Shown here: positions 5,688-30,351 of the stretch, one piece after another
Position numbering within the stretch: the stretch's first letter is position 1
How the letters are laid out: the number at the start of each line of letters is the position of its first letter
Assembly: GCA_003151985.1 (NCBI GenBank)
Contig: PLZC01000062.1
Span: forward strand, 1 to 32,063
From: Acidobacteriaceae bacterium
GTDB lineage: Bacteria > Acidobacteriota > Terriglobia > Terriglobales > Acidobacteriaceae
Length of the DNA: 32,063 nucleotides
Direction: 5' to 3'
Translations under genes and position numbers: made by a program
The notes under the pieces: generated by a model
Databases searched by the model: none
What the model saw: the letters and a program-made list of their open reading frames with translations, nothing else
What the model was told of the DNA's origin: nothing

Positions 5688-8600
5688 ATGCGGTATAGGA
5701 CACTGGTAATTCTGCTTGCGATCGTCACTCTCTGCTTTAGCGCGGGATTGACTGCGATTGGCGAAAAGCCCGCACGCGCGCTTGGATCGAAAGGCGGCGT
5801 CGCGGCGGCCGTCGATGTGCCACTCGACGGCAACGACTGGCGCATGGGTTCGTTTGAGTTTGATGCGGGCGTCAAAGCCGGGGCTGATTCGGAAAGCTTC
5901 AACGAAAGCGCATTCCGCACGGTGACGGTCCCCGGCGACACGCAAATGCAGGCCGGTTTCACCGGTGTCGAGCGATGGTTTGAGACCAAAGACCTGATCG
6001 CGGTAAACGCGCACGAATGGTGGTACAGAAAACATTTCCATGCCGGGCCGAAGGTCGCGGGTACGCTGACCCAACTCATCTTCGATGGATCGGATTACTT
6101 CACCACCGTGTGGCTTAATGGGCAGCTCCTGGGCACGCACGAAGGGACATACACTGGGTTCGCCTTCGACGTGAGCAAGCAACTGCGATTCGGCGCAGAC
6201 AACATACTTGCGGTTCAGATTACTCACCCCTGGGTGCCGAAAAACGGGCGCAGCCTGCTCGAGTACCTGAACGGCGACTTCACCATGGCATACCCGGGAA
6301 GCGATGTTGTGCTCAAAAAGCCGCCGTACTTTATCGACATGAGCTGGGATGCGCTGCCCGCCCAGGGCAATGCCGCATATGTAATGGGTATCTGGAGAAG
6401 CGTCCACTTGCGCACATCGAGCCCGGTGACCATCGACGATCTCTACGTAGAAACCAAATCCATCGCAGCGGACGGAAGCGCGACTCTGCACATTGGCGTC
6501 ACGCTCAAGAATGCCGGCCCGGACACCGCTTCAAAAACAGTAACGCTGCGCCTCAAGCCCGACAACTTTGATGGCGTCGCGCAAGACCTGCCCCCGCTTG
6601 TGCTCACCGCCGCTCCGGGAGAATCCAAGGCAGAGGCCGAGGTACATGTGCCGCAAGCCAAGCTATGGTGGAGCTGGGACAAGGGTCCGCAGAATCTCTA
6701 TCGACTTGAGGCCTCGACGGCTGCCGGTAAGGGCCAGTGGGGCGACCAGCGCTCGGTCGTCTTCGGCATTCGCACCATTACGCGCGACCCGGACATGGCC
6801 TATCGGCTGAACGGCAAAAAGATGTTCATGAAAGCCTCTTGGTTTTCGATGGAAGATTTCTATCGTTCCACGCCAACCGCCGAGAGCTACGAGCGGGATC
6901 TGCGGTTGTTTCGCGACGGCAACTTCAATATGCTGGTCAACTTTACGGTGGTTGAAAAGCCGGAATTCTACGATCTGTGCGACCGCCTGGGAATCCTGGA
7001 TGTAGTCGAGCTTCCCTTCGAGCAGTTCGGTCCACAACAGATTTTGGGAATGGACAACCCGCGCCGAGAACCCTACATGAAGCAGGCCACGTCGCAGGTC
7101 CGCCAAATCATCACCGCTCTGCGCAATCACCCCTCCGTCGTGGAGTGGGCGCCCCTGGCCGAGGCGCATGAAAAGGCCGGCGAGTGGAGCAACGGCGTTG
7201 ACCAGAAGGGCTATGACGATTTCATCGCGCAGATGAAAGCCATTGTTACCGAGCTTGCCCCGGACAGCGTCTTTCACCCCAGCCTGTGCGACCTGGGCGA
7301 GCAACACTTTTGGACCGCCGCAGCCGGAATGCTCTGGGCGGGAGAGAGCTATGCGGACCTCTTCGACGCAAAGACAGGCTTTGTTTCGGAGTATGGCGGC
7401 ATCTCTTTGTCTTCCTATGAAAATTTGGGCAAGTACCTGACTCCCGCGCAGCAGTGGGGAACAAACGCCGGTTTGCCGCAGTGGTTCAATCTGCCTGTGG
7501 ATACGGCGGCGTACGCATACCTCACCAGCTTCGATAGCAACGGCTTGTACAGCATGTTCTATCGCACCAAGCATTTTATCGATAGCGATCCGCGCTCCGC
7601 GGCAGAGCTTGTAAGCGATACGCAGCTTTACCAGGGGTTCGTGCTCAACTACGCTGCGCAGGCGTTTCGGCGCAAGAAATACGATCCGGTCAACGGCATT
7701 CGCTCATGGAATTTCATGGAACTCGGGCCGGGCTTCCGCTTCGGCGTTGTGGACTACGACCGTGTACCCAAGACGGCCTACTGGATGATGAAGCGGGCGC
7801 AGGCGCCGGTTGCGCTCAGCTTTGCTTACAAGGAATCGCTCGATTCTGAATTGGCGGGGAGCAAATGGTCCGCGCCCGTTTGGCTCATCAACGATACAGA
7901 CCTCGAGGTTCGCGGCACGGTGCATGCGTCGCTGATTGCGCTGGATGGCAAGAAGGTAGCCGCCGCCGATTTTCCCGCCTCAATCGCCGCCGATGGCAAG
8001 GGTTCGGTTGGGGACTTCTCCCTGACCTTGCCCGAGGCGACTGGCGTCTATGTGTTGCGGGCTTCGCTCAGCGGCGCGGACGGCGCAGAGTTGGCCTCGG
8101 AAACTTCCTTCATCAAGGTCGTGCCGTCCGCCTTCAAAGGCGCGCATCGTGTCTTGCTCATCGCGCAGTCCAAGTTCGGTTCGCCCATCGCCGCCATGTT
8201 GCGCGCCATGGGCCTGGACGTCGATGTGTACGACGAAAACTCGCTCGATGAAATGGGCCGCGAACTTGTCGACGGGCCAACGCTGCGAACCAAGTACGAC
8301 GTGATCTGGCTGGGATGCTTTGAGTCATTGGCGAAGGTGCTGCCGGCGGAGACCGGAAAAGCGATCGTGGACGCCGTGAAGGCCGGCTCCGGGTTCATTC
8401 ATACGGGCGGAGACGGCAGCTATCACGGCGGGCTTGGCCATGCAGCAGTGATCGAAGCCACCGCGCTGGACGCGCTTCTCCCAGTGGAAATTCAAGGCCA
8501 CGCGGACCTGATTTTTGGGCCGCACGGAATGGACGACTCCCTGCCGACTCAGAACATGATTCACGAGATTGCCGCGGGAAGCGATGCCGCAGCGTCCGGT

Positions 8601-9251
8601 GTTTCGGCGGAGGACCTTGAACTCCTTCGTCACTACGGACTGCTCGGCTTCAACCAGGTAGCCGCACGGTCAGGGTCGCATAACGTACTGACCATCGCCG
8701 GACAACCGCTTATGGTTACAGGCACAGCAGGCACAGGCAAGACAATTGCCTTTACCGGCTTCACACTGCCGGTGAGCGTCGCCAGCGCTATGCCGATCGA
8801 TCAATACCTGGTCGCCGAGCCCCAAGGGCGCGCCCTTTTCGTGCTGTACGCGGATATGCTCGCCAACGTGATGCCGGGCGGCCAGCAGCGTACTACTGAC
8901 CTGCTCTCAGTACACGAGAAGCCGCTCTTTCAGACTCTCAAGGAGCAGCCGAAGACGGAGCTTGCCGTTACCAAGGTGGAATCGGCGCCCGCCGCCGGGT
9001 CCGCCGCCCACACAAAGGTTCGCATCTCGAACAAGGGAAGTTACGCGCATCTGGTTCACATGAGATTCGAATGGCCGGGCGCCGGCATCAAGCCTTTCCT
9101 GGCAGAGCTGAGCGATAACGACTTCGAACTGTTGCCCAACGAGTCCAGAGAAATTGAACTCACCTGGCGGACCTCAACCACAACCGCGCACGCTAACGGA
9201 ACAGTGATTGTGAATGCGGCCAATGCGCCGGAAACACAATTGGCATTCTGA
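5688..9251 (+). CDS. Large secreted GH2-family glycosidase-like protein with a C-terminal GATase1/ThuA-like domain
   Basis: Signal peptide; GH2 sugar-binding, Ig-like and barrel regions ('YFTTVWLNGQLLGTHEGTYTGFAFDVS', 'RNHPSVVEWAPLAEAHE', 'GFVSEYGG'), then 'HRVLLIAQSKFGSPIAAMLRAMGLDVDVYDENSLDEMG...YDVIWLGCFESLAKVLPAETGKAIVDAVKAGSGFIHTGGDGSYHGG'. Confidence 0.85.
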   Translation: MRYRTLVILLAIVTLCFSAGLTAIGEKPARALGSKGGVAAAVDVPLDGNDWRMGSFEFDAGVKAGADSESFNESAFRTVTVPGDTQMQAGFTGVERWFETKDLIAVNAHEWWYRKHFHAGPKVAGTLTQLIFDGSDYFTTVWLNGQLLGTHEGTYTGFAFDVSKQLRFGADNILAVQITHPWVPKNGRSLLEYLNGDFTMAYPGSDVVLKKPPYFIDMSWDALPAQGNAAYVMGIWRSVHLRTSSPVTIDDLYVETKSIAADGSATLHIGVTLKNAGPDTASKTVTLRLKPDNFDGVAQDLPPLVLTAAPGESKAEAEVHVPQAKLWWSWDKGPQNLYRLEASTAAGKGQWGDQRSVVFGIRTITRDPDMAYRLNGKKMFMKASWFSMEDFYRSTPTAESYERDLRLFRDGNFNMLVNFTVVEKPEFYDLCDRLGILDVVELPFEQFGPQQILGMDNPRREPYMKQATSQVRQIITALRNHPSVVEWAPLAEAHEKAGEWSNGVDQKGYDDFIAQMKAIVTELAPDSVFHPSLCDLGEQHFWTAAAGMLWAGESYADLFDAKTGFVSEYGGISLSSYENLGKYLTPAQQWGTNAGLPQWFNLPVDTAAYAYLTSFDSNGLYSMFYRTKHFIDSDPRSAAELVSDTQLYQGFVLNYAAQAFRRKKYDPVNGIRSWNFMELGPGFRFGVVDYDRVPKTAYWMMKRAQAPVALSFAYKESLDSELAGSKWSAPVWLINDTDLEVRGTVHASLIALDGKKVAAADFPASIAADGKGSVGDFSLTLPEATGVYVLRASLSGADGAELASETSFIKVVPSAFKGAHRVLLIAQSKFGSPIAAMLRAMGLDVDVYDENSLDEMGRELVDGPTLRTKYDVIWLGCFESLAKVLPAETGKAIVDAVKAGSGFIHTGGDGSYHGGLGHAAVIEATALDALLPVEIQGHADLIFGPHGMDDSLPTQNMIHEIAAGSDAAASGVSAEDLELLRHYGLLGFNQVAARSGSHNVLTIAGQPLMVTGTAGTGKTIAFTGFTLPVSVASAMPIDQYLVAEPQGRALFVLYADMLANVMPGGQQRTTDLLSVHEKPLFQTLKEQPKTELAVTKVESAPAAGSAAHTKVRISNKGSYAHLVHMRFEWPGAGIKPFLAELSDNDFELLPNESREIELTWRTSTTTAHANGTVIVNAANAPETQLAF

Positions 9252-9696: not shown

Positions 9697-10908
9697 GTGG
9701 AATGGAACCTTGAGATGAAGAACGATTTCGAGCACCCGGTGGCTGTTTTGGGATTGCCCCTGGATTGCCTCTCGACCGACGCCGCGGTTGAGGCCCTGGA
9801 ACGCTTGGTCCTTTCCGGCGGAACGCATCAAGTGCCTACCGTCAATCTCGACATCTGGCTCAATTCGCAAAACGATCCTCATTTGCATCGCATCATCGCC
9901 GGATGCAGCCTGGTGCTTGCGGATGGAATGCCGCTGGTGTGGGCTTCAGGATTGCTGGGGTGTTCTCTGCCGGAACGAGTCACCGGTGTGGATCTCGTCC
10001 CCAAACTGGCCGCGCTTTCCGCGCGCAAAGGATACGGGATCTTTTTGCTTGGCGGCCGGCAAGGAGTAGCCGAGCGGGCGGCGCGGATGTTGGAGCGCGA
10101 CAACCCGGGAGTTCGCATTGTGGGCACCTATGCGCCCCCCGAGGAAGACCTGATCCGGATGGATCACAGTGAAATTCTGAACCGGATTCACGCCGCCAAG
10201 CCCGATATTCTCCTGGTCGCTTTTGGAAATCCCAAGCAGGAAAAGTGGATCTGGATGCATCTCAAGCGGTTGGGCGTTCCGGTATCGATGGGCGTGGGCG
10301 GGAGCTTCGACATTCTGGTGGGCGACGTGCGCCGCGCGCCGCAGTGGATTCAACGATGCGGCTTCGAGTGGGCGATGCGTTGTGTGCAGGAGCCTGCGCG
10401 CCTGGCGCCGCGGTACTTGCGGGACTTTGTGGGGTTGGCCAGGCGGTTGCCCTTGGCGCTTTTGGCTGCCTGGAGTCAGCGGCCTTACTTGGGACAATCC
10501 ACTGTTACCTCCATTAGCACTCCCGGCGCAATCCACGTCTATGTGCATGGCAAACTCGGAAGCGAAGTTGCGCCTGCCCTGCAAGAGGCCGTATCTGCCG
10601 GCATTGGCAACGGGCTTGTAACGGTTGTCCATTTACAGGCCGTGAAACAAATCACCACGTCGGGTCTCGGGGTTTTGATGTCGTTGCGGCGCCAACTGCT
10701 GGAGTGCGGCCTGTCCCTGCAATTGGCCGGCCTGAATTTGCGGCAGCGTTTTTTGCTTCATGCTTGGTGCGCGCAACCGTTGTTTGACGATTGGTATCCG
10801 GTGAGCGCGCAGGGCCGGTCGCTGGCATTGGAAACCGAAGCCGCAGCGAGTATTGGCATGACCGCAGAGCAGGACGCGGCTTCCACGCAGACCCGCTCCC
10901 GTGGATAG
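9697..10908 (+). CDS. WecG/TagA/CpsF-family glycosyltransferase with a C-terminal STAS domain
   Basis: 'VPTVNLDIWLNSQNDPHLHRIIAGCSLVLADGMPLVWASGLLG...GYGIFLLGGRQGVAERAARMLERDNPGVRIVGTYAPP...LLVAFGNPKQEKWIW...GVGGSFDILVGDVRRAPQWIQRCGFEWAMR' is diagnostic of the GT family; C-terminus 'GAIHVYVHGKLGSEVAPALQEAVSAGIGNGLVTVVHLQAVKQITTSGLGVLMSLRRQLLECGLSLQLAGLNLRQRFLL' is STAS-like. GTG start at 9697; alternative ATG at 9715. Confidence 0.88.
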   Translation: MEWNLEMKNDFEHPVAVLGLPLDCLSTDAAVEALERLVLSGGTHQVPTVNLDIWLNSQNDPHLHRIIAGCSLVLADGMPLVWASGLLGCSLPERVTGVDLVPKLAALSARKGYGIFLLGGRQGVAERAARMLERDNPGVRIVGTYAPPEEDLIRMDHSEILNRIHAAKPDILLVAFGNPKQEKWIWMHLKRLGVPVSMGVGGSFDILVGDVRRAPQWIQRCGFEWAMRCVQEPARLAPRYLRDFVGLARRLPLALLAAWSQRPYLGQSTVTSISTPGAIHVYVHGKLGSEVAPALQEAVSAGIGNGLVTVVHLQAVKQITTSGLGVLMSLRRQLLECGLSLQLAGLNLRQRFLLHAWCAQPLFDDWYPVSAQGRSLALETEAAASIGMTAEQDAASTQTRSRG

Positions 10909-10941: not shown

Positions 10942-12381
10942 ATGAACGTTATCATCCTCATCCCGGCTCTGGCCTGCTGGTTGGTGCTGGCCAGGGGATC
11001 GATTCGGCAGGCATTTATCTATGTCTACCTGCCGGCGGTTCTGTTGCTGCCCCATTACTATGTTTTCCGTCCCCCTCACATGCCGCCCCTCGCTTTCAGC
11101 GAAGCGGCCATTCTGCCTTTGGGCATAGCTATGTTTGCCACCGAACTGCGACGCTGGCGGCTGCAGTGGATGGACCTGTGGGTCCTCCTGTTTGCCTTGG
11201 CAGCCGCCGCTTCTGAAGGCTTGAGCGCCCAGTTGGCCTACGGGAATTGGGTACGGCTTTTTACGGCGGACTCGACGGCTTCCACAATACTCACATACAA
11301 CATCAACAACGGCATATTCCAGTTCTTTACCGGACTTACAACGATCATCCTGCCTTACATGGTGGGGAAGTTGCTGATAGAGGGTGGAGAGATCGGCGGT
11401 GTCCCGGTTAGAAAAGTGTTTGTCCGCCGTATGGTCATGATGTTGGCTGTTGTGGCAGCGATCAGTGTCTTCGACTTTCTCACCGGCACCAGCAGTTGGC
11501 AGCGTGTGTTCGGACATGTTTTCTCCGGCCAGGAGGTGGATTGGCCGCAGCAGGTTCGTTGGGGTTTCGGGCGCATCGCCGGACCCTTTGCCCATGCCAT
11601 TCTGGCCGGTATGGTTTTCCTCACAGGACTGTTCTATTGCCTGTGGCTGCGCATGGCGGACCCGAAGTGGGGCACGCGGAGAGTGCTGAGTGGCCTGCCG
11701 CTGACCCAGCGGGGGCTGGGACTGGCCGGGGTCTTTGCCGGTCTGCTGATGACACAGTCGCGCGGGCCGTGGCTGGGGGTTGCGCTATCGCTGCTCCTGG
11801 CGCTGCTGGTGCGTGTTTTCTCGGTGCGCAAGGCGGCGGTGGCATTTGTCGTGCTTCTGGCGGTATTGGGTTCCATGGCCTTTGTTGTTGGAGATAAGTA
11901 CACCATAGGATCGCGCGACGAGGCGACCAGCGAGGCACAGTCGAGCGCCATTTATCGAAGGCAATTGCTGCAGAGTTATACGCCGCTGGTGAAGGAGCGC
12001 ATGGCCTTCGGCTGGGGCATCAGCGACTACCCGGCGGCAAACGGACAAAGGTCAATCGACAACCAGTTCCTGATGCTGGCCGTGACCCAGGGCTTTGTAG
12101 GTATGGGGTTGTTTCTCATCATCGCCGTCGGTAGCGGCATCCGCCTCGTGCAAATGGCCGCGCGTCCCATGCTGCCTGAGGATCGCATGCTGGTTTATGC
12201 CCACATGGCGGTGCTGATAGGATTGATGACCACGCTCACAACTGTTTATATGGGAGAGCAAGTGGTCATGGTGTTTTTCCTTCTCATTGGCTGGGTGCAG
12301 GGCATGAATCCGGCGCGGGTCCAGGCGCGAGTCGCGGGTACGGTTGCACCCCAGTTCAGGTTCCGGCGGGTATTGAGTTAG
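10942..12381 (+). CDS. O-antigen ligase / polysaccharide polymerase-like membrane protein
   Basis: 479 aa, many TM segments; 'GLLMTQSRGPWLGVALSLLLAL' and 'WGISDYPAANGQRSIDNQFLMLAVTQGFVGMGLFL' typical of Wzy/WaaL-like proteins. Confidence 0.8.
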   Translation: MNVIILIPALACWLVLARGSIRQAFIYVYLPAVLLLPHYYVFRPPHMPPLAFSEAAILPLGIAMFATELRRWRLQWMDLWVLLFALAAAASEGLSAQLAYGNWVRLFTADSTASTILTYNINNGIFQFFTGLTTIILPYMVGKLLIEGGEIGGVPVRKVFVRRMVMMLAVVAAISVFDFLTGTSSWQRVFGHVFSGQEVDWPQQVRWGFGRIAGPFAHAILAGMVFLTGLFYCLWLRMADPKWGTRRVLSGLPLTQRGLGLAGVFAGLLMTQSRGPWLGVALSLLLALLVRVFSVRKAAVAFVVLLAVLGSMAFVVGDKYTIGSRDEATSEAQSSAIYRRQLLQSYTPLVKERMAFGWGISDYPAANGQRSIDNQFLMLAVTQGFVGMGLFLIIAVGSGIRLVQMAARPMLPEDRMLVYAHMAVLIGLMTTLTTVYMGEQVVMVFFLLIGWVQGMNPARVQARVAGTVAPQFRFRRVLS

Positions 12382-12408
12382 AACCTTTCCATAGTTAGAG
12401 AGACATTG

Positions 12409-13581
12409 ATGCAGCATTGGGCAATCACGGCGCTGGCTGTGGCGTTGGCGGTCTTTACCGCCCCGCTGTTTTTTGACCTTGCGCTGGCCATCGTGGGCAA
12501 CCTGTTTCCGGCCCGCGGGCCGCAAGCCGATGCAAAACTGAACATTCGCCTTGCCGTGGTGGTGCCGGCGCACGACGAAGAAGCGATGATTGCGCGGACA
12601 GTTGCGTCGATTCGCGCTGCGGATCTGGCCGTGCCGGTGTTTGTTGTGGCGCACAACTGCGCCGACGCCACAGGCGAGGTAGCGGCGAAGGCCGGCGCTC
12701 AGGTGCTGGAGTTGAATGACCCCGCGCTCCGAGGAAAAGCAGCAGCGTTGCGCGCGGGTTTTGCGGCTGCGCTCGAGGCAGGGGCCAGCGCATTGCTCGT
12801 CATCGATGCGGACTCGGTGGTGAGCGCGAATCTTATCGCGGCCACTCGCAAGGCCATGGAAGCGGGCGCCGAGGCCACGCAGTGCCGATATGAATTGGAG
12901 ATCTCCGCAGCAACCGGTGCGCGCGGCCGGCTGCGGGCGCTTGCATTTCGCGGCATGAACGTGTTGCGGGCGGCCGGAAGAGCGGGCCTAGGCTTCTCAG
13001 CCGGCGTCTTTGGAAACGGATTTGGTTTGACCGCATCGACCCTGAATAGCGTCCCGTTTGCCGCCGACAGTATTGCCGAAGACCTCGAGTACCACGTCCG
13101 GCTGGTCTCGAGCGGCCTGCGGGTCCATTGGCTTGAAGACGCCTTCGTCCACGCTCCCCTGGCGTCGGCGGGCCGTGCGCAGGCAGCACAGGAATCCCGC
13201 TGGGAAGGTGGGCGGCTGGGCGTAGCGAGACGCTCGACGGGACGATTGCTGGCCGCAATTTTGCGCGGCAACTGGCGCGCGCTGGAGACGCTGGCCGAGG
13301 TCTGGAGCCTGCCGCTGTCGCGCGGAATTCTGGCTTTGCTGTTGGCAGCCGCGGTGCCCGTGTTTTGGCTGCAAATGTATGCCGTGGCCTGCTTGGCTAT
13401 CGCGGTCATCTACGTGCTTGAAGCGGCCCTGCTGGGCCAAGAGCCTCTCCGCGACCTTGTAGCGCTGGCCGCTGCGCCGTGGCACATGGTTTGGAGGGTG
13501 GCCATCACGCCGCTGGTTCTACGCCAGTCACGGAGGCGCGCCGAGTGGGCCAGGACCAAGCGAGAGGCGCCCCGGCCATGA
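12409..13581 (+). CDS. Glycosyltransferase family 2 protein
   Basis: 'RLAVVVPAHDEEAMIARTVASIRAA...VFVVAHNCADATGEVAAKAGAQVLE...RGKAAALRAGFAAAL...LLVIDADSVVSANLI', C-terminal TM segments. ATG at 12409 preferred. Confidence 0.9.
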   Translation: MQHWAITALAVALAVFTAPLFFDLALAIVGNLFPARGPQADAKLNIRLAVVVPAHDEEAMIARTVASIRAADLAVPVFVVAHNCADATGEVAAKAGAQVLELNDPALRGKAAALRAGFAAALEAGASALLVIDADSVVSANLIAATRKAMEAGAEATQCRYELEISAATGARGRLRALAFRGMNVLRAAGRAGLGFSAGVFGNGFGLTASTLNSVPFAADSIAEDLEYHVRLVSSGLRVHWLEDAFVHAPLASAGRAQAAQESRWEGGRLGVARRSTGRLLAAILRGNWRALETLAEVWSLPLSRGILALLLAAAVPVFWLQMYAVACLAIAVIYVLEAALLGQEPLRDLVALAAAPWHMVWRVAITPLVLRQSRRRAEWARTKREAPRP

Positions 13582-15236
13582 ACGAAATCCAGTTGATTCC
13601 GGATTCGCCTGACCGGGAAACGGGCTGGATCCTCGACCCCCAGGCAGCAGAACCTCTGCACGACGTCAGCCGCCAGTTTGGGCGAAATGTAGCTGCAACC
13701 ATCGTCGCGCGCCTGGTGAACATGGCTCGAGGCGTTTGCCTGGTGCCCTTCCTGCTGGCGCACATCGGCCTCGAAGCCTATGGCATCTGGACCACCATCT
13801 TCATCCTGGTGACCTATGTGGGAGTTACCACGCTGGGTATCTCCAATGTGTATATCAAGTACGTTGCGGAGTTCCATGCGCGGCGCGAATACGACAAGGC
13901 AAATGCACTGCTCTCGACGGGACTGGCGGTAACCATCCCCTTGTGCGGCGCGGTCTTTCTCTGCTTTCTGCTGGGGTGGGACCGGTTTGCTCCCTGGCTG
14001 CGGCTGCCGGCTGAGCATGCCGGCGACGGCAAGGAAGCAGTGCTGATTGTGCTCGCCGTCTTCCTGTCCAGCATCGCGCTGAATGCTTTCGGCGACATGC
14101 TCACCGGGACGCAGCAGATTGCCTCGACGCAGATATTTCTCAGCATCGGCATTGTCACCGAGTTTGCATTGATCGTCTGGCTGGTCGTCGCCGGGCGCGG
14201 CATCCGCGGCCTGGCCGAGGCTTACCTGGTCCGGACCGTCATCAACGATGGACTTACTATCTGGTGGGCTCGGCGGCAACTCAAGTGGCTGCACTTGTCG
14301 CTCCGCCTGGTGCGGCGCGAATCGCTGAAATATGTAGTGCATTTCGGCGGGATGGTTCAGTTCCAGAGTATGCTGTCGACTTTTCTGAACTCCGTGGAAC
14401 GGGTGGCTGCGCTTGTGTTGATCAATGCATCGGCCGCCGGCCTGCTGGACGTAGCCAAGAAGTGGCCGGTTTCGCTTTCCTCCATCCCAACAGCGTTTTT
14501 TGCCGCGCTTTTGCCCGCCGCCTCCCACGTCGACGCCGCATCGGCGCGGGCCGCCAGAAAAGACAACCTGCGCGAGCTCTATCTCAGCGGAGCGCGCTAC
14601 TCCAACCTCTGCACCGCGGTCTTTGTGGCGGCCATGGTGTTCTGGAGTACCCCAATTCTGCACGTTTGGTTAGGTCCCGGGTTACCTATGAGGGACACGC
14701 TCATCCCCCTGTTCGTGGTATTTAGTTTGGCGATGCAATTTCATATGCTTACAGGTCCGGGAACTTCTATTTTGCGCGGTATTGGGCGCATTTATGAGGA
14801 GTTCACTTACTCGCTGCCAAACTTGCTGCTGCTGATGGTAACTTTACCCGCGGCCCGTTGGATCGAGGGACGTTGGACACCATTGGGGATTGGCTTGGCT
14901 GTTGCAGTGGCTACCGCAGGTTCAGCATGCGTTCTGATGGGACGTGTACTTTTTGTGCTGGATCTGCCGCTGACACGTTTCCTGCGGGTAGTGGTAGCGC
15001 CGGGATTGGCGCCCTATCTGGCTGCCGGATTGTTGGCATGGCCCACAGCACGGATGGTAGCGGCGGTGAACCGGTGGCAGGGGGCTGGAGTCCTGGTCGC
15101 TGTGGGTGCGGTTTACGGGGCAGCAGTTTTTGCATCGCTGCTGCAATGGGTTTTCACGGAGCAGGAGAAGCAAAAAGGGCGCGGAATAGTTCGCCGGGGA
15201 TTGGCATTTCTCCGCAAGGGCGAGGCAAAAGCATGA
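13578..15236 (+). CDS. Polysaccharide flippase / lipopolysaccharide exporter (MOP superfamily)
   Basis: Multi-TM protein 'QFGRNVAATIVARLVNMARGVCLVPFLLAHIGLEAYGIWTTIFILVTYVGVTTLGISNVYIKYVAEFHARREYDKANALLSTGLAV'; ATGA overlap with the upstream GT2 gene. Confidence 0.85.
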   Translation: MNEIQLIPDSPDRETGWILDPQAAEPLHDVSRQFGRNVAATIVARLVNMARGVCLVPFLLAHIGLEAYGIWTTIFILVTYVGVTTLGISNVYIKYVAEFHARREYDKANALLSTGLAVTIPLCGAVFLCFLLGWDRFAPWLRLPAEHAGDGKEAVLIVLAVFLSSIALNAFGDMLTGTQQIASTQIFLSIGIVTEFALIVWLVVAGRGIRGLAEAYLVRTVINDGLTIWWARRQLKWLHLSLRLVRRESLKYVVHFGGMVQFQSMLSTFLNSVERVAALVLINASAAGLLDVAKKWPVSLSSIPTAFFAALLPAASHVDAASARAARKDNLRELYLSGARYSNLCTAVFVAAMVFWSTPILHVWLGPGLPMRDTLIPLFVVFSLAMQFHMLTGPGTSILRGIGRIYEEFTYSLPNLLLLMVTLPAARWIEGRWTPLGIGLAVAVATAGSACVLMGRVLFVLDLPLTRFLRVVVAPGLAPYLAAGLLAWPTARMVAAVNRWQGAGVLVAVGAVYGAAVFASLLQWVFTEQEKQKGRGIVRRGLAFLRKGEAKA

Positions 15237-16228
15237 AGTACCGAATTGGCGTCGTTTGCATCCTTCTACTTCTCTCTGGAACCTCTCGGTTCTGGGGTCA
15301 GGACGGTGCCTCGGCCCAAAAGTCGGCGCAGGAACCGCCCGATCCGCAACTCAAGCAACATTCGCTCGATATTCTGCGCAACTTCGAACCCGCCGCCGAT
15401 GAAGAATATCGCCTTGGCAAAGGCGACGAGATTAACCTGGACTTTTCCGGGCGGCCCGAAATGCAGGCCAAGCTTGCTGTCGGACCGGACGGGCGCATTT
15501 CGCTTCCGTTGGTTGGCGATATCATGATGGCTGATCGCACCCGCGCTGAAGCGGCCAAGGCCATCGAGTCCGCGCTGGCGGAGTACTACTCCAACATGGC
15601 GGTCATGGTTACTGTAACCAAGTACACCGCCAACCGCATTATGGTCACCGGCGCGGTCGATCGCCCCGGCATGTATACATTCGAAGGCACGCCGACTTTG
15701 CTCGAGGCCCTCAGCCGGGGTCTCGAAACCGGCGCCAGCAAGATTGGGCAAATGCCCGAGCGCTGCGCCATCTACCGTGGTCGCGACCAGGTGGTGTGGG
15801 TCGAGCTCAAGACACTGCTCGATTCCGGGAACATCTCCGCGGATGTGCGCCTGCGCCGCGATGACGTGGTGTATGTGCCCAGCCTCTCCGAGCGCTTTGT
15901 CTCCGTTCTCGGCGAAGTGAATCGTCCCGGCGCCGTCACATTGACCAATACCTCGACCCTGGCCAGCGTGCTGGCCGCCGCGGGTGGATACACCAACAAG
16001 GCCGGCAACAAACCGCACATCCAGATCGTTGACCCGGCTAACGGAACCTCGCGCATTTTCTCGATGAACGATCTGCTGAACCCCGCCCGTTCACTGGAAG
16101 TAACCTTGCGGCCGGGCGAGATCGTCTTCGTACCCCAGAGCGGCTTCTATCGCGCCACCTATTTCCTTGAGCGGCTCAGCCCGCTTACCACGCTGGCCAC
16201 TTTAAGCGCAGTCACGGGGGCGCTATGA
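15233..16228 (+). CDS. Polysaccharide biosynthesis/export protein (Wza-like, SLBB domains)
   Basis: MKYRIGVVCILLLLSGTSRFWGQ signal; 'YRLGKGDEINLDFSGRPEMQAKLAVGPDGRISLPLVGDIMMADRTRAEAAKAIESALAEYY' and two SLBB-like segments. ATGA overlap with the flippase; the 14858 start in the track lies inside the upstream gene. Confidence 0.9.
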   Translation: MKYRIGVVCILLLLSGTSRFWGQDGASAQKSAQEPPDPQLKQHSLDILRNFEPAADEEYRLGKGDEINLDFSGRPEMQAKLAVGPDGRISLPLVGDIMMADRTRAEAAKAIESALAEYYSNMAVMVTVTKYTANRIMVTGAVDRPGMYTFEGTPTLLEALSRGLETGASKIGQMPERCAIYRGRDQVVWVELKTLLDSGNISADVRLRRDDVVYVPSLSERFVSVLGEVNRPGAVTLTNTSTLASVLAAAGGYTNKAGNKPHIQIVDPANGTSRIFSMNDLLNPARSLEVTLRPGEIVFVPQSGFYRATYFLERLSPLTTLATLSAVTGAL

Positions 16229-19200
16229 AGCAGCTTCGCGTGCATCCCGAACCTCAATACCAGCGCCGCGCCAGCGACAGAGCCCAAGCCGCTTCATCTA
16301 TCGAGGTCCGGCCGGATTCTTCAAGTGGCGAGCAGCCGATTTTCCGGCTGGATCTACTGCGCAGCCTGCAACTCCATCGCGGCCTGGCATTGGCAATCTT
16401 GCTGGCCGGCCTCGCGGGGGCGGCGGCTTATTTGCTGGCACTGTGGCCGCTCTATACTGCGCAGAGCCTGGTTTACATCCAGCCGGCTCCGCCACGGGTC
16501 ATGGACCTGGGCTACACAACACGATGGCCATTCGACACAAACACCTATGAGTCCTATATCGCGCAGCAGATGGTCCACGTCACCCGTTACGACGTGCTGA
16601 CCAATGCGCTGCGCAAACTGGAGCCCGGCGCCTGGCAGCATAAAAACGAAAGCGACCAGGAAGCCGCCGAGCGGCTTGCCCGGGCGGTCGAGGTCAAGCG
16701 TCTCGGCACCAGTTATGAGATGTCTATCGCCGCGCGTGCTTCCAGCGCGGCAATGGCCGCAAAGTTGTCCAACGCCGTCACTGCCAGTTATTTAGAGAGC
16801 GCTGCGCGGGAAGGGAAGTCAGGGAACACCGAGCGCATGGGCATGCTGCGCGAAGAGGAAGAGCGCGTTAAGGCAGCGCTGACCTCCGACCGCACCGAGC
16901 AGCATGAGTTGAACAAGAAGCTGGGCTTGGCTGGAGTGGGAACGAACGCCCCCGATCTCTATGACGAAGACCTGAGCCGGGTCCGCAACGAATTGGTCAA
17001 GGCGCGCTCGGCAAGCGACGAGGCAGCGGCCAGACTGGCTACATTGGATGGCAAAAATCCGCATTCATTGGCATCTCTGGACGCCGAGGCCGATCAGGTT
17101 CTCTCTGCCGATGCCGGCCTGGCGAGCATGAAGGTCACGCTCTTCCAGCGGCGGGCCACGCTCACTTCGCAAATGGCAAATCTGACGCCGAATCACCCTC
17201 AGTACAAGCAGGATGCGGAGGAGCTTTCGCAGATCGACAATACCCTCGAGTCAATGACCAGGGATCTGCGCTCCAAGGCATCCGTACGAATCCAGCAAAG
17301 GCTGCACACGGATTTGGAGCGAACCGCGGGGGAAGAATCGCGGTTGAACGCGCAATTGGGGCAAATGTCGGCGGCCGCGTCGGGTGTGACCCCGAAGATG
17401 CAGCGGGAAAACGATCTGGCAGCGGACATCGTCCGGTTGCAGAATCGTTACACTGCGGTAGACGACCAGTTGCACAACCTCATGCTTGAAGACGCAGCGC
17501 CCGCCTCCTCCTACATGGCAGCCGCGGCAGTGTCCCCGCTGCAGCCCGTCAAGTCCGGTGTGATGCGAAATACCCTCGCCATCGCGCTGGCCGGCCTGCT
17601 TCTGGGCATCATGGCCGCTGTCACTGCAAACAAGCTGGACCCGAAGGTTTACATTGCCTCCGACGTCGAACGGGTTCTGGGTTTTGCACCCATGGCCGTG
17701 CTGCCGGACTTTGCCCAGGTCTCAATAGGAGTGGCTGAAGAACACGTCTTGCGTCTCTCCTCCGGCATCGAGCATGCCCGCCAGCAGGGCAACTTGAAAA
17801 GCTGCATCTTTACCGGAACCGGACAGGGCACTGGCGTTACAACGGTGGTGACCCGGGTAAGGACGATGCTGGAGACGATGGGCAGAGCCACGGTGCTGGT
17901 AGATGCCTCTGGAACTCCGCCGCCGCCGGCACGCGCCAAAGGCGGGCTTGGCCTGAATGACGTCGCGAGCAATCTCGCAACCCACAGCGGCAGCCGGTCT
18001 ACGACACTGTTGCAGCAGTTGGCCGATGAGGCGGAAGCCGGAGAAGGGAGTCTGGTCCTCACGGATACAGCGCCGTTGGCAGTCTCCGCCGAAACCGAGT
18101 ACCTGGCTCGCTTCGTCGACGCCGCGATCGTAGTCATCGAATCCGGCGTCACCACCCGTGCAGAACTGCGGGAAGCGGCCGGCGCCTTGCAGCGGCTCGA
18201 AGTGGGCGCCGTGGGATTCGTGCTGAACCGGGTAGGACTGCAGAAGGCCGATGCGTCTTTTCGCAGTTCCGTTCGAGGCATCGAACTACATCTGCGTGCG
18301 CAGGGCCGCACCTATGCAAGGAGCACGGAAAGAAGCCGCCTTTCTGCCGCCGCTCCGCGGTCAACTAAGACCAACCGAAATTCAGAGGAGGCTAAGGCCG
18401 AGCCAAAGGTTGCGGAGCCCCCTGCCGGAAGCGAGACCGCCTCGTCGCAGTTCCGCCGCCGCTCCACTGACAGGCCCGCTCCTGAACTCTCAGCTCCTTC
18501 TCAAGCGCCGTCGCAGTTCCGGCGTCGCTCCACCGACAGGGCCGGCATCGGCATACCCCTTGCCGGGCCCCCCCCCCAGCCGGATTCCTCCGTTCCCCTG
18601 ATGCCACAAGAGGCCCCGGTCGAGGTCCGGCCGGCTAACCCGCCCCTCCCATTGGCGCCGCCACAACCACTTATCCGGGGCCGCGAGCCTGCCGTCGCGC
18701 CGCCACCCAGGACTACTGAGCCTCAAATTACCGTCGCCCCGCCGCCGGCCCCCAACGTGCCCTGGTATCGAGCCCAGGCAGCTCCGCAGCCAATTCCTGC
18801 GGCGCAACCTTCTCCGGCCCAGCCCGCTCCTGCCCAGCCCGCTCCAGCCCAAACCTGGGAGCGCATAGCCACCCGGTTCGATGACACACAGCCGGAGCCC
18901 GTCCCGGAAGAGTTGCCGCAGCCCGAACCCGCGGATACCCCGTTTGACTCGGCAACACGGATGACCGGCTTGAGAAATCTGATCTTTTCCCTGGGGATGA
19001 AGAATCCGAACATGCCCGCGGAAGAGCCCGAGCACGTTGCAGAGGTCCCGCCGCCTTTTCACCAGGCGCCGGAGCGGCCGGCATACGATCCCACTTATAC
19101 GCAGCAAAACTATACGCCCGCTCCACAGCCCTCTTCACAAAGGGAAACTGCCGCCCCTTCGAGGTTGGTTACTGCCCCGCCGGAATTCCTGCCGCCAAAG

Positions 19201-19332
19201 CCGGTTGTTGAGACATCGGACAAGGATCAGGAGTGGAACAATCCCACCAAAGGTCACCGCGACCGCCGTGATGCCTACGACGATGTAGAGATTTTGCCGT
19301 CATGGCGCGGTCAATACCGGAAGAAGAATTAG
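16225..19332 (+). CDS. Chain-length determinant (Wzz/GumC) / BY-kinase-like protein with degenerate P-loop and long Pro-rich tail
   Basis: Two TM segments flanking a coiled-coil region ('LAILLAGLAGAAAYLLALWPLYTAQSLVYIQP', 'TLAIALAGLLLGIMAAVTANKLDPKVY'); P-loop position 'CIFTGTGQGTGVTTVVTRVRTMLETMGRATVLVDASG'; Pro-rich tail with QFRRRSTDR x2 and PAQPAPAQPAPAQ. Confidence 0.85.
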   Translation: MKQLRVHPEPQYQRRASDRAQAASSIEVRPDSSSGEQPIFRLDLLRSLQLHRGLALAILLAGLAGAAAYLLALWPLYTAQSLVYIQPAPPRVMDLGYTTRWPFDTNTYESYIAQQMVHVTRYDVLTNALRKLEPGAWQHKNESDQEAAERLARAVEVKRLGTSYEMSIAARASSAAMAAKLSNAVTASYLESAAREGKSGNTERMGMLREEEERVKAALTSDRTEQHELNKKLGLAGVGTNAPDLYDEDLSRVRNELVKARSASDEAAARLATLDGKNPHSLASLDAEADQVLSADAGLASMKVTLFQRRATLTSQMANLTPNHPQYKQDAEELSQIDNTLESMTRDLRSKASVRIQQRLHTDLERTAGEESRLNAQLGQMSAAASGVTPKMQRENDLAADIVRLQNRYTAVDDQLHNLMLEDAAPASSYMAAAAVSPLQPVKSGVMRNTLAIALAGLLLGIMAAVTANKLDPKVYIASDVERVLGFAPMAVLPDFAQVSIGVAEEHVLRLSSGIEHARQQGNLKSCIFTGTGQGTGVTTVVTRVRTMLETMGRATVLVDASGTPPPPARAKGGLGLNDVASNLATHSGSRSTTLLQQLADEAEAGEGSLVLTDTAPLAVSAETEYLARFVDAAIVVIESGVTTRAELREAAGALQRLEVGAVGFVLNRVGLQKADASFRSSVRGIELHLRAQGRTYARSTERSRLSAAAPRSTKTNRNSEEAKAEPKVAEPPAGSETASSQFRRRSTDRPAPELSAPSQAPSQFRRRSTDRAGIGIPLAGPPPQPDSSVPLMPQEAPVEVRPANPPLPLAPPQPLIRGREPAVAPPPRTTEPQITVAPPPAPNVPWYRAQAAPQPIPAAQPSPAQPAPAQPAPAQTWERIATRFDDTQPEPVPEELPQPEPADTPFDSATRMTGLRNLIFSLGMKNPNMPAEEPEHVAEVPPPFHQAPERPAYDPTYTQQNYTPAPQPSSQRETAAPSRLVTAPPEFLPPKPVVETSDKDQEWNNPTKGHRDRRDAYDDVEILPSWRGQYRKKN

Positions 19333-21244: not shown

Positions 21245-24094
21245 TTATCGGCCCGCCGGCACCGCCGTCTGTTGGAGCCCGGCATTCCAGGCGTCTACGG
21301 TCACCAACGCGCCACCCTTGGTCGCAGCATCCTTCCACTGGACATTGAAGTCAATCGTCTTCGTCTCCCCCGGCGTCAGCCAAAGGTCGTTGTCCGTCCC
21401 CCAGAAGGTCCGCTTCGTCCCTGCAATGTTCACATGCGTCTCGAACGCCGGATTCTTCCCGATATTCCGCACCTCAACCCGGACCACGCTTTCCGCATCG
21501 CTCACATCCTTGCGCGAGATCACTTTTAGACCAAGCGTTGTCGGTGTTGCCGCCACCTGAGGCCGGAGCCAGGGACCATTTTCGAACTTCAGCGAAGGCT
21601 GAGGCGAACCGCGATACTTGGTCCGGAAAGCCGAGTCGTTCATCAGCTTCAGGCACCGCGGCCAGTAAACCGACCGCGACAGCAGCTTGCCGTCCGCGCT
21701 CTTGGCCTCCGCCACCACAAAGAAGAACTTGTCTTCCAGGCCGTCGGGAATCGTAAACGCGCCCATCTCCATGCTCTTGGCAGACGGCCCCGCCGGTACG
21801 TTCATGGGCAATGTCTTGCTCCACAACGAGTGGAATTGCGGGTCCAGAATTTGCACCGATACAGAAACGCCGGCCAGCGCCGTCACCGGCGAATGCACCA
21901 CGCTCACCGAAATCGGAATCTTCTCGCCCTTTGCCCAAAGAAGTTCGGGAAGTTTCACCACCACGTGCGTCGGCTCGTAGGTCCGCTTGATGGTGTAATA
22001 CGACGACGTCGGTTGATTGAGCCCATCGACGAACATGAAGAACTCGATCGGCCACGGCACCGTAAACGACCACGGCATCAGCCCCGCCGTCACCGGATAA
22101 TTCGCCTGCGTCAGGTCGGAGAGTATCTGCGTAAACTCCGAGGCCGCCATCTGCGAATCCTCGCTGAATCCCTTCAAATCCACCTTCGCCACGTCGTCCA
22201 TCTGGTAAGCCCGGGCCCACATCAGCCGCGGCTCTCCGCCCACATATTCCAGGAAATGATGGATGAACTCCGGGTGTTGTTCCTGGTACCCTTTGTCGAA
22301 GATCGTCTGAAATTGACCCTGCAATTCTTTCGCATCCACCACTTCCAGAATCGAGTCGGCGTCAGGCATGTTATAGATTCCGGTCTCGCTGATAAACGGC
22401 ACCGACTTGTAGCGATGCCCATACCAGGTCGGATCCTGGTCGTAGTAGATATGCACATCTCCCGGGTCGGGCGTGGTGCGGATAAACATCCGGGTCCCGT
22501 CGAAATCGCGCACCGAGCGCTCCACGATTCCCACCACTGCCGAGTTGCCCGCGTCATAGGGATTGAATTCGTTTCCGCCGCACCACACTGCCAGCGAAGA
22601 GTGATTCCGCAGCCGGAAAATGGTATGCATCACCTGCGCTTCCCACACGTCCTGGGGCAAGATGGGCGCGTCCGCGTTGGCCAGCGGGAAGTCTTCCCAC
22701 ACCATGATGCCCAGCTTGTCGCACAGCGTGAAGAATTCGTCGGTCTCGGTATTCCCGCCGCCCCAGACGCGCAGCATCTGGATGTGCGCGGCTTGAGCTT
22801 GGGCCAGCACCAACTGGTATCTGTCCGCCGGCAGATGCAGCAGCACATCCAGCGGCCACGCCCAGTTCATGCCTTTCACAAACAGAGGCCGCCCGTTCAC
22901 TACGAACTGCCAATTCTCCCAGCGGTCCTGCGTCTTCGGCCCCGGTGTGGGCACGCGTTCGATGGTCCGAATGCCAAAGTCGAACTCCATCCGGTCAATC
23001 GCCTTTTGCTGCCGTAGCAATGTCAGGTGGACCCGGTAAAGATTCGGATCGCCCATGCCGTTCGGCCACCACAGCCGCGGATTCGGCACCTCGATCTTCT
23101 CTTCAACCCAATTCCGCCCCTGCACCGCCTTCACCGGCCACGCCCGCTTCAGCGCCACGCGCGAAGTGCCCTTCTCAACCAGTTCCACCTGCAGCGACAG
23201 GTCCTTTTGCTCCGCCAGCGCAACCGCCGAGTCGCGCAGGGCCCCGAATTCCTTCTGGATGTCGGTGTCCAGCGCCGTTGTCTCCGCCAGCACCTCCACC
23301 TTCAGTTTCAGCGACGCATTGGTCCCCGACGCCTTCTCCGTAACCAGAAACGGCCGCGCCAGGTGCACCTTCGGCGTCAACTCCAGCCGCACGCCTTGCC
23401 AAATCCCAAGCGGCTCAATCTCTTTGGGGTCGATGCCGCTGCCGCCGGTCACATATTTCTGTCCGCCGTTCACCCCCCAGGGCTCGGCGGTCTTTCCGTT
23501 GCCGTAGTTATCCGGGTCCCAGGTCTTTTCCCCGTAACTGCCCGCTTTCACCTCGACCACGATTTCGTTTTGCTTGCCCTGCTCGATCCACTTGCTCACT
23601 TCCACATGCGGCCCGCCAAACATGCCCTCGTGGCGCCCAACCAGCGTCCCGTTCAGCCAGATCTTCGTGTGATAGCCCGCGCCGTCGAAGCAGAGAAAAA
23701 CGTAATCGTCCTTCGCTCCTGCCGGAACCTCGAAGTGCCGCCGGAAGTACCACACCTTGTCCGGAACCCATTTGTACTTCTGCGTATTCATGTGCGCATA
23801 GGGATACGGCAACTCCCCGGCCTTGTAAAGCGCCCATTGCACGGAAGTAGGCACCTCGGCCTTGACCCATTTCTGCTGGCCCAGGTCTGCAACAGCGGCT
23901 ATTCCCGCATCCCGCGAGCCCAATTCCCAATCGCCGTCCAGCGAAAGATGTTGGTCTCCCTGCCGGGCGTCCACGTAAAAGGGTTGCCAAAGGGTTTTTT
24001 CGCTTGCCTGCTGCGCATTCACCAACTGGTGCCCCATGCTGAACAGCACAATTGCCATAACTGCCGCGCCACAAAATCTCGTTCTCATCTGCAC
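21245..24094 (-). CDS. Secreted GH2-family beta-mannosidase / exo-beta-D-glucosaminidase-like glycosidase
   Basis: 'YVFLCFDGAGYHTKIWLNGTLVGRHEGMFGG', 'VNGRPLFVKGMNWAWPLDVL', 'IQMLRVWGGGNTETDEFFTLCDKLGIMVWEDFPLANAD', 'RNHSSLAVWCGGNEFNPYD', signal peptide. Confidence 0.9.
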   Translation of the reverse strand: MQMRTRFCGAAVMAIVLFSMGHQLVNAQQASEKTLWQPFYVDARQGDQHLSLDGDWELGSRDAGIAAVADLGQQKWVKAEVPTSVQWALYKAGELPYPYAHMNTQKYKWVPDKVWYFRRHFEVPAGAKDDYVFLCFDGAGYHTKIWLNGTLVGRHEGMFGGPHVEVSKWIEQGKQNEIVVEVKAGSYGEKTWDPDNYGNGKTAEPWGVNGGQKYVTGGSGIDPKEIEPLGIWQGVRLELTPKVHLARPFLVTEKASGTNASLKLKVEVLAETTALDTDIQKEFGALRDSAVALAEQKDLSLQVELVEKGTSRVALKRAWPVKAVQGRNWVEEKIEVPNPRLWWPNGMGDPNLYRVHLTLLRQQKAIDRMEFDFGIRTIERVPTPGPKTQDRWENWQFVVNGRPLFVKGMNWAWPLDVLLHLPADRYQLVLAQAQAAHIQMLRVWGGGNTETDEFFTLCDKLGIMVWEDFPLANADAPILPQDVWEAQVMHTIFRLRNHSSLAVWCGGNEFNPYDAGNSAVVGIVERSVRDFDGTRMFIRTTPDPGDVHIYYDQDPTWYGHRYKSVPFISETGIYNMPDADSILEVVDAKELQGQFQTIFDKGYQEQHPEFIHHFLEYVGGEPRLMWARAYQMDDVAKVDLKGFSEDSQMAASEFTQILSDLTQANYPVTAGLMPWSFTVPWPIEFFMFVDGLNQPTSSYYTIKRTYEPTHVVVKLPELLWAKGEKIPISVSVVHSPVTALAGVSVSVQILDPQFHSLWSKTLPMNVPAGPSAKSMEMGAFTIPDGLEDKFFFVVAEAKSADGKLLSRSVYWPRCLKLMNDSAFRTKYRGSPQPSLKFENGPWLRPQVAATPTTLGLKVISRKDVSDAESVVRVEVRNIGKNPAFETHVNIAGTKRTFWGTDNDLWLTPGETKTIDFNVQWKDAATKGGALVTVDAWNAGLQQTAVPAGR

Positions 24095-28287: not shown

Positions 28288-28959
28288 ATGAAAGACGCCA
28301 TCTACGTATCCAAAGAAAACTATTTGAAGGCCATTCTCGAGGCTGAGGCGGAAGGGAATCAGGTCATTCCCGCCACCCTTGCCCATTGGCTCGAGGTCTC
28401 CGCGCCGGCGGTCACCATGGCCCTCAAGCGCCTCAAGCGGGATGGGTACGTCGAAGTGCGCACGGACGGCATTGTGCGCCTCACCCCGGCCGGCCGCGAG
28501 ACCGCCTACCGCACCGCCCTCCGCCACCACCTCATCGAACGAATGTTGAGCGAGATCTTCGGCATGGAGTGGTACGAAATCCACGAAGAGGCCGAGCGCC
28601 TCGAGCACGCCGTCTCCCCAGCCTTCGAAACCAAGCTCAAGGACAAACTGGGTGCCGGCGGGGCCTGTCCGCACGGCAATTTTGTGCTGCCCGAGAGCCC
28701 GGCTGAGCGCAAAAGCCGTGGCGAAATTCCGCTCTCTGAGGCCAAGGCAGGAGAACGCTACACCGTCGTCAGCCTCCACGAACGCGACCCCAAGCTGCTG
28801 CTTTTTCTGCACGGCGCAGGCATCGGGCCCAACGAAACCCTCCGCGTCGTCAGCCAGAACTACGACCAGACCGTTTCGATTGAGCTACCTGCGGGCGCCT
28901 CCATCCTCGGCCGCCCCGCCGCCGAGGCCATCTGGTTGCGCTCCCAAAGCGCACGATAA
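28288..28959 (+). CDS. mntR: DtxR/MntR-family metal-dependent transcriptional regulator
   Basis: 'KENYLKAILEAEAEGNQVIPATLAHWLEVSAPAVTMALKRLKRDGYVEVRTDGIVRLTPAGRETA...HHLIERMLSEIFGMEWYEIHEEAERLEHAVS', FeoA-like C-terminus; adjacent to mntH. Confidence 0.88.
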   Translation: MKDAIYVSKENYLKAILEAEAEGNQVIPATLAHWLEVSAPAVTMALKRLKRDGYVEVRTDGIVRLTPAGRETAYRTALRHHLIERMLSEIFGMEWYEIHEEAERLEHAVSPAFETKLKDKLGAGGACPHGNFVLPESPAERKSRGEIPLSEAKAGERYTVVSLHERDPKLLLFLHGAGIGPNETLRVVSQNYDQTVSIELPAGASILGRPAAEAIWLRSQSAR

Positions 28960-28968
28960 ATAAACTTG

Positions 28969-28986
28969 TTAACCATAATTAACCAT
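28969..28986. promoter_or_regulatory. Candidate metalloregulator operator: TTAACCAT direct repeat
   Basis: TTAACCAT AA TTAACCAT with 10-bp period in the mntR-mntH intergenic gap. Confidence 0.45.
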
Positions 28987-29028
28987 GTGTGGCATACTGG
29001 TCTTGCGTACTTGCGACGACCTTCTCCT

Positions 29029-30351
29029 ATGGCTACCGGAATCGAAACAAACTTGGCGCTCATCGAGCCTTCTCTGCCGGAGGTGCATTCCAGCGTTCAT
29101 GTTTCCCGGTCGCCCAATTTCTGGCGGCGGCTGGCGGGCTTCATCGGTCCCGGCTTCCTTATCTCGGTCGGCTACATGGATCCCGGCAACTGGGCCACTG
29201 ACATCGCCGGCGGCTCGCGGTACGGCTACACGCTGCTGTTCGTCATCATGGCCTCCAACCTCATGGCGATTCTGCTGCAAAGCCTGAGCCTCAGGCTTGG
29301 CGTGGCTACAGAGCGGGATCTGGCGCAACTCTGTCACGAGCGATACGGCCCCAAGGTCAGCTTTGTCCTGTGGATCTTCGCAGAGGTGGCCATTGCCGCC
29401 TGCGACCTGGCCGAAGTCATCGGTTCGGCCATCGCCCTCCAGCTTCTCTTCCACATCCCGCTTTTTTACGGCGTCCTGATCACCGGCCTCGATGTGCTGC
29501 TCATCCTGCTGTTGCAGCGCTGGGGCTTCCGCTACGTTGAGGCGTTGGTGATTGCGCTCATCGGCGCCATCGTGGCCCTTTTTGGCATTCAGATGTTCCT
29601 CTCCAAGCCCGAGTTCTGGCCCGCGTTCAAGCATCTCATCGTACCCTCGCCGCAGATCTTCACCAACCCCGGCATGATGTTCATCGCCATCGGAATGCTG
29701 GGCGCCACCGTCATGCCGCACAACCTTTACCTGCACTCTTCCATCGTGCAGAGCCGTCGCTACAAGCGCACGCCCGAGGGCAAGCGCGAAGCCATCTTCA
29801 TGGCCAGCCTGGATTCTCACCTGGCCCTGACCCTCGCCCTCTTCGTGAACGCGGCCATTCTCATCGTTGCCGCGGCGGTGTTTCATCGCAGCGGCCATTT
29901 CGAAGTCGCGGCGATTCAGGATGCCTACAAGCTGCTCAGCCCTCTGGTGGGCGCGGCCGGAGCCAGCACCCTGTTTGCCATCGCCCTGCTGGCCTCCGGA
30001 CAGAACTCTTCCATCACCGGCACCCTGGCCGGCCAGGTAGTCATGGAAGGATTCGTCCACCTCAAGGTCTCCGCCTGGCTGCGGCGCCTCATCACCCGCA
30101 CCATCGCCATCATCCCCACCATCATCGTGGTCGCCATCACCGGCGAGCGAGGCACCGAAAAGCTGTTGCTGCTGAGCCAGGTGATCCTCTCCTTGCAATT
30201 GAGTTTCGCCGTCATTCCACTGGTTCTGTTCACCAGCAGCCGCAAAACCATGGGCGAATTCGTGAACCCCCGCTGGTTGAAAGTGGCGGCTTGGTCCGTA
30301 GCCATCCTTATCGCGGTGCTGAACGGTTGGTTTTTGGTGCTGATGGTATAG
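29029..30351 (+). CDS. mntH: NRAMP-family divalent metal (Mn2+) transporter MntH
   Basis: 'GFLISVGYMDPGNWATDIAGGSRYGYTLLFVIMASNLMAILLQSLSLRLGVATERDLAQ', 'GATVMPHNLYLHSSIVQSR'. Start at MATGIETN (29029) rather than 28966. Confidence 0.95.
   Translation: MATGIETNLALIEPSLPEVHSSVHVSRSPNFWRRLAGFIGPGFLISVGYMDPGNWATDIAGGSRYGYTLLFVIMASNLMAILLQSLSLRLGVATERDLAQLCHERYGPKVSFVLWIFAEVAIAACDLAEVIGSAIALQLLFHIPLFYGVLITGLDVLLILLLQRWGFRYVEALVIALIGAIVALFGIQMFLSKPEFWPAFKHLIVPSPQIFTNPGMMFIAIGMLGATVMPHNLYLHSSIVQSRRYKRTPEGKREAIFMASLDSHLALTLALFVNAAILIVAAAVFHRSGHFEVAAIQDAYKLLSPLVGAAGASTLFAIALLASGQNSSITGTLAGQVVMEGFVHLKVSAWLRRLITRTIAIIPTIIVVAITGERGTEKLLLLSQVILSLQLSFAVIPLVLFTSSRKTMGEFVNPRWLKVAAWSVAILIAVLNGWFLVLMV

Follow-up and report, generated by a model that had tools for sequence, protein, structure and literature searches.

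A GT26 glycosyltransferase gene with a fused RsbV-like STAS domain at the head of an exopolysaccharide operon in Acidobacteriaceae

A complete WecG/TagA/CpsF-type (GT26) glycosyltransferase and a genuine STAS domain are joined in a single gene of an Acidobacteriaceae bacterium (GCA_003151985.1, contig PLZC01000062.1, positions 1 to 32,063, forward strand; this whole stretch of 32,063 nucleotides is called the window). By sequence comparison, the fusion is conserved through part of the Acidobacteriaceae. The enzyme is plausibly controlled by phosphorylation in relatives from Chloroflexota and phospho-blind in this acidobacterium.

The gene forms one open frame, and the following features were assigned to it.

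9697 to 10908, plus strand: WecG-STAS fusion gene of 403 aa; either GTG 9697 or ATG 9715 may be the start codon
9907 to 10416, plus strand: WecG/TagA/CpsF (GT26) domain, residues 71-240 by Pfam
10393 to 10476, plus strand: long C-terminal helix, residues 233-260, by AlphaFold
10501 to 10818, plus strand: STAS domain with RsbV-like fold, residues 269-374, by Pfam, genome scan, AlphaFold and Foldseek
10654 to 10665, plus strand: TTSG in place of the SpoIIAA motif DSSG, residues 320-323, with T321 at the Ser58 position
10819 to 10905, plus strand: C-terminal tail, residues 375-403, predicted disordered and poorly conserved

The Pfam family WecG (PF03808) was matched on residues 71-240 with an E-value of 5e-60, and the match covered profile positions 2-168 of 168, i.e. 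the full length of the family. The NCBIfam model TIGR00696 was matched as well. For the STAS domain, the Pfam scores of the single sequence were marginal: STAS_2 was found on residues 283-355 at 3e-6 (27.7 bits versus a cut-off of 29.2) and STAS on residues 275-351 at 1.1e-4 (22.4 bits versus a cut-off of 22.6). The NCBIfam model ant_ant_sig was matched at 2.9e-5, under its cut-off, and a phmmer search against the PDB returned a Haliangium STAS protein at 0.0097. STAS scored 24.9 bits, above its cut-off, in a six-frame scan of the whole genome, and STAS_2 was matched by 31 of 35 single-STAS relatives, the family being PF01740/PF13466 in profile terms. Despite the sub-cut-off scores, the assignment is settled by these relatives together with the AlphaFold model and the Foldseek comparison. 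Chance similarity to STAS was ruled out by the family-wide profile match and the fold, and a frameshift or assembly chimera by the identical fusion architecture in many independently assembled genomes. The initial annotation had read a WecG domain followed by STAS features in one uninterrupted frame; this reading holds, and neither a missing STAS fold nor a frameshift between two genes was found.

Both domain folds were confidently modelled by AlphaFold from 35 relatives (mean pLDDT 87.4, pTM 0.83); only residues 1-10 and 371-403 were disordered. In Foldseek comparisons, the N-terminal half matched TagA (7mpk) with a TM score of 0.93, which identifies the GT26 fold. Residues 269-374 were modelled as beta-beta-alpha-beta-alpha-beta-alpha, with a pLDDT of about 95 across most of the domain, and the best structural match of the C-terminal part was RsbV from the RsbV/RsbW complex (TM 0.86). 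In a phmmer alignment, T48, D76, R228 and R235 corresponded to T37, D65, R214 and R221 of TagA; D76, R228, R235 and R239 are kept in 35/35 relatives and T48 in 31/35. Soluble TagA forms an inactive dimer; activation occurs when the C-terminal appendage takes up its fold at the membrane and contributes Arg221 (PMC6493773). The window protein resembles TagA/TarA (WecB/TagA/CpsF family, GT26; PDB 7mpk, 5wb4) in its fold, in the catalytic Asp and Thr, and in the C-terminal arginines of the appendage. However, in TagA the appendage is the last element and the enzyme works in wall teichoic acid synthesis, whereas the window protein continues into a STAS domain and is encoded in a Wzx/Wzy exopolysaccharide (EPS) operon. 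Helix 233-260, the first half of which is strongly amphipathic (moment 0.81), begins in the TagA-type appendage and heads toward the STAS domain in the model, a single unrefined one from which the relative placement of both domains is taken.

Strong matches to the fusion protein were found in 47 of 398 genomes of a sample of Acidobacteriaceae, and orthologues in the same genus showed 62-71% identity spanning both domains. Among 396 sampled genomes of the phylum, matches spanning both domains were confined to one family (f1). The gene heads a conserved operon in Acidobacteriaceae, and the genes following it in the window are listed below.

10942 to 12381, plus strand: Wzy_C/O-antigen ligase-like polymerase
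12406 to 13581, plus strand: GT2 glycosyltransferase, EpsU-like
13479 to 15236, plus strand: candidate flippase of the Wzx type with a weak match to the family; translation probably starts after 13479
14858 to 16228, plus strand: Wza-like polysaccharide export protein, true start likely downstream of 14858
16225 to 19332, plus strand: Wzc-like chain-length/tyrosine autokinase protein, 1035 aa

Wzy, GT2, Wzx, Wza and Wzc follow WecG-STAS in this order at most of the acidobacterial loci that extend far enough; exceptions are few (e.g. L115, L116 and L122). L116, from the culturable Acidicapsa dinghuensis, has WecG-STAS with a different operon order. The EPS context of the gene was assigned correctly in the initial annotation. 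The operon is flanked by two large GH2-type glycoside hydrolase genes (5688-9251 and 21245-24094), the first of which encodes a glutamine-amidotransferase-like domain in the C-terminal half of the product. Farther along the window (28288-30351), a gene for an iron-dependent repressor (DtxR/MntR-like with FeoA domain) precedes one for an Nramp manganese transporter.

The spread of the fusion was assessed by scanning one genome per species. Among the best 80 loci, which set a lower bound, fused relatives occurred in no fewer than six phyla other than Acidobacteriota; the matches listed belong to Chloroflexota, Verrucomicrobiota, Armatimonadota, Myxococcota (the NCBI rank of records titled Deltaproteobacteria), Lentisphaerota and one gammaproteobacterial MAG. 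Resemblance to the query decided which rows were included, so the list cannot serve as an unbiased census. At E<=1e-60, 16 of 201 Chloroflexota genomes were matched; of these, only about six showed the high-identity fused type, which therefore does not characterise the phylum as a whole. Most of the non-acidobacterial members listed, including those of Chloroflexota, carry two STAS domains, and those of Armatimonadota and the gammaproteobacterium carry one; WecG and STAS were matched by all 42 double-STAS members. A verrucomicrobial protein of 734 aa (L169:235-2436) consists of WecG, a degenerate STAS-like stretch and an apparent further glycosyltransferase.

In a tree of the glycosyltransferase part, the fused proteins formed one clade with an SH-aLRT support of 89, or 97.8 after removal of long-branch rows; the two exceptions both lack a recognised STAS domain. 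The Acidobacteriaceae formed one group (support 99), and unfused WecG proteins of acidobacterial genomes were placed elsewhere. The genome of the fusion gene also encodes an unfused WecG paralogue with 34% identity (G000:C461:34669-35361). The simplest reading of this tree is that the fusion arose once and then spread. The initial annotation had called the architecture unusual; an oddity confined to Acidobacteria is ruled out by the fused relatives in several other phyla. The parts belong to known families, and their combination is a conserved multi-phylum architecture; no description of a WecG-, TagA- or CpsF-STAS protein was found in the open-licence literature. One earlier mention of a glycosyltransferase with a STAS domain concerns all4160 of Anabaena, needed for heterocyst envelope polysaccharide (PMC8256260). 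The STAS domain of all4160 is reported as N-terminal, unlike that of the window protein.

The motif T320-T321-S322-G323 was read correctly in the initial annotation and aligns with DSSG of SpoIIAA; the window protein is without the phospho-site serine of the D-S-S/T-G motif of RsbV/SpoIIAA-type antagonists. At the Ser58 position, none of 40 acidobacterial STAS domains has Ser and three have Thr, and most close orthologues carry Ala; the preceding Asp was kept in one of the 40, and TAAG is the commonest acidobacterial motif. Thr321 is therefore not a conserved phospho-acceptor. It had been proposed that either Thr/Ser accepts the phosphate or the site is degenerate, and the second alternative stands. 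Genes for RsbW and for SpoIIE/RsbU were found neither in the window nor at any acidobacterial locus, i.e. the linked cognate kinase and PP2C phosphatase of a partner-switching system are absent at the acidobacterial WecG-STAS loci. The window STAS domain thus shares the fold of the anti-sigma-factor antagonists RsbV and SpoIIAA but differs in its fusion to an enzyme, its replaced phospho-serine and its locus.

In Chloroflexota, the Asp-Ser pair is kept in the first STAS domain of 35/35 proteins, and Ser in the second of 34/35. The pair is also kept in the members from Myxococcota and Armatimonadota and in most of those from Verrucomicrobiota. Where at least 4.6 kb of downstream sequence was available, an RsbW gene followed in 25 of 27 Chloroflexota loci, both exceptions being Chloroploca. 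Ahead of it, in the same orientation, nearly always lie a PP2C (RsbU) gene and a gene for a free STAS protein (RsbV). Chloroflexota genomes contain many RsbW-like genes (about ten strong ones in Chloroflexus islandicus); chance adjacency was estimated near 1% per locus, the loci being related rather than independent. In C. islandicus (L135:9050-18629), the RsbV-RsbU-RsbW set lies inside an EPS operon in the order sugar-phosphate transferase, WecG-STAS-STAS, nucleotidyltransferase/sugar transferase, RsbV, GAF-SpoIIE phosphatase, RsbW, GT2 and flippase, all with clear Pfam matches. WecG-STAS-STAS is encoded at L135:10007-11527 and RsbW at L135:15181-15612. About 24 other Chloroflexota loci likewise have the complete set within an EPS operon, directly downstream of the fusion gene. 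Another Chloroflexota locus (L163:5607-6725) encodes, between the RsbU and RsbW genes, an apparent PHP-type phosphoesterase domain with a DSAG-bearing STAS domain. In two Chloroflexota genomes (L198:7164-11090 and L199:5765-9816), a second, unfused WecG gene is found close to a pair of adjacent RsbW genes and a STAS gene; this unfused Chloroflexus WecG was discounted as support because an acyl-CoA carboxylase gene lies between. The kept serine and the adjoining RsbV-RsbU-RsbW genes make partner switching a good hypothesis for the Chloroflexota homologues. The idea of phospho-gating is well motivated for these relatives and is not supported for the acidobacterial protein.

The reading to which we give about an even chance is that of an EPS glycosyltransferase with an RsbV-like STAS docking module, phospho-independent in Acidobacteriaceae and set by RsbW/RsbU in Chloroflexota. 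The GT26 enzyme is predicted to add a sugar to a polyprenyl-linked intermediate of a Wzx/Wzy-type pathway. Its TagA-type active-site appendage would continue as a helix into the STAS domain, and a partner bound there would set the membrane or oligomeric state of the enzyme. As the appendage helix runs toward the STAS domain, a bound protein would be well placed to help or hinder the membrane switch. This partner would be RsbW in Chloroflexota, where it is co-encoded, and its effect would be relieved by the RsbU phosphatase. In Acidobacteriaceae, where phospho-serine and local kinase and phosphatase are absent, docking should be phospho-independent, with the STAS domain locked like one with a Ser-to-Ala exchange. 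A precedent is SypA, a STAS protein of the syp polysaccharide locus of Vibrio fischeri, which is inactivated by phosphorylation of Ser56 and controlled by SypE; the S56A variant is independent of the kinase SypE (PMC4517449). By analogy, the acidobacterial STAS domains would be phospho-blind. SypA is likewise encoded with polysaccharide genes and controls biofilm formation, but is a free single-domain STAS protein with a phosphorylated serine and no fused glycosyltransferase. The HmpU-HmpV-HmpW partner-switching set for hormogonium development in Nostoc punctiforme (PMC8256260) is comparable to the Chloroflexota neighbourhood, although HmpV is a free STAS protein. Docking in the acidobacterial protein has against it that no cognate kinase is encoded nearby and that the STAS domain evolves faster than the glycosyltransferase domain.

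Less probable, though the strongest of the alternatives, is an action of the STAS domain within the protein or between its copies (autoinhibition, dimer control or scaffolding of an EPS complex), with no partner of the RsbW type involved. In TagA, the C-terminal appendage mediates control through a transition between dimer and monomer (PMC6493773). The STAS domain is attached to this element in the AlphaFold model, and the acidobacterial proteins have lost the serine while keeping the domain. The Chloroflexota proteins, however, with their retained serine and co-encoded RsbW, point to an external partner there.

That the STAS domain is a remnant of an enzyme formerly regulated by phosphorylation, functionless now in Acidobacteriaceae, is somewhat less likely still. 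The absence of the phospho-site and of a local kinase and phosphatase, and the marginal Pfam scores, fit this explanation, as does the faster evolution of the domain: close orthologues share about 50-61% identity with the window protein in the STAS domain and 69-78% in the glycosyltransferase domain. Yet all 40 acidobacterial fusions examined have the STAS domain, and the model of the window protein shows it well folded. Its dN/dS was about 0.1-0.24 between close orthologues where calculable, many dS values being saturated; such values, well below 1, indicate that the domain is constrained.

The initial annotation had considered control of EPS synthesis by a partner-switching kinase; for this organism, phosphorylation of T321 or S322 by a genome-encoded RsbW-like kinase is an improbable explanation. 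The genome does encode RsbW-like kinases (among them those on C91 and C329) and an RsbU-RsbW-RsbV module, Thr and Ser are both present at the site of this single protein, and the mechanism is plausible in Chloroflexota. But these kinase genes lie on contigs other than that of the fusion gene, and the module has its own serine-bearing RsbV (NSSG); free STAS proteins of the genome, encoded on C91 and C316, keep NSSG and DSSG. The residue counts at position 321 (Ser 0/40, Thr 3/40, mostly Ala in close orthologues) and at the preceding Asp (1/40) also argue against it. Sensing of a small ligand, nucleotide or lipid, by the STAS domain is very improbable: related copies are weakly similar to MlaB and SulP STAS models and MlaB is among the lower-ranked Foldseek matches, but the best structural match is RsbV.

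More tentatively than the docking of a partner itself, it is proposed that STAS-fused GT26 proteins may be direct enzymatic outputs of partner switching in several phyla. RsbW and RsbU would then act on an EPS glycosyltransferase instead of a sigma factor, via its membrane-switching C-terminus, and the Acidobacteriaceae would hold a phospho-blind derivative. The direct target of SypA was unknown to the authors of PMC4517449, and that of HmpV is given as unknown in PMC8256260; for such STAS proteins of polysaccharide loci, the fusion names a candidate target, a GT26 enzyme. The operon of the culturable Chloroflexus, with its complete RsbV-RsbU-RsbW set, would offer a self-contained system for partner switching at the enzyme level, and the acidobacterial fusion a natural phospho-dead comparison to the Chloroflexota version.
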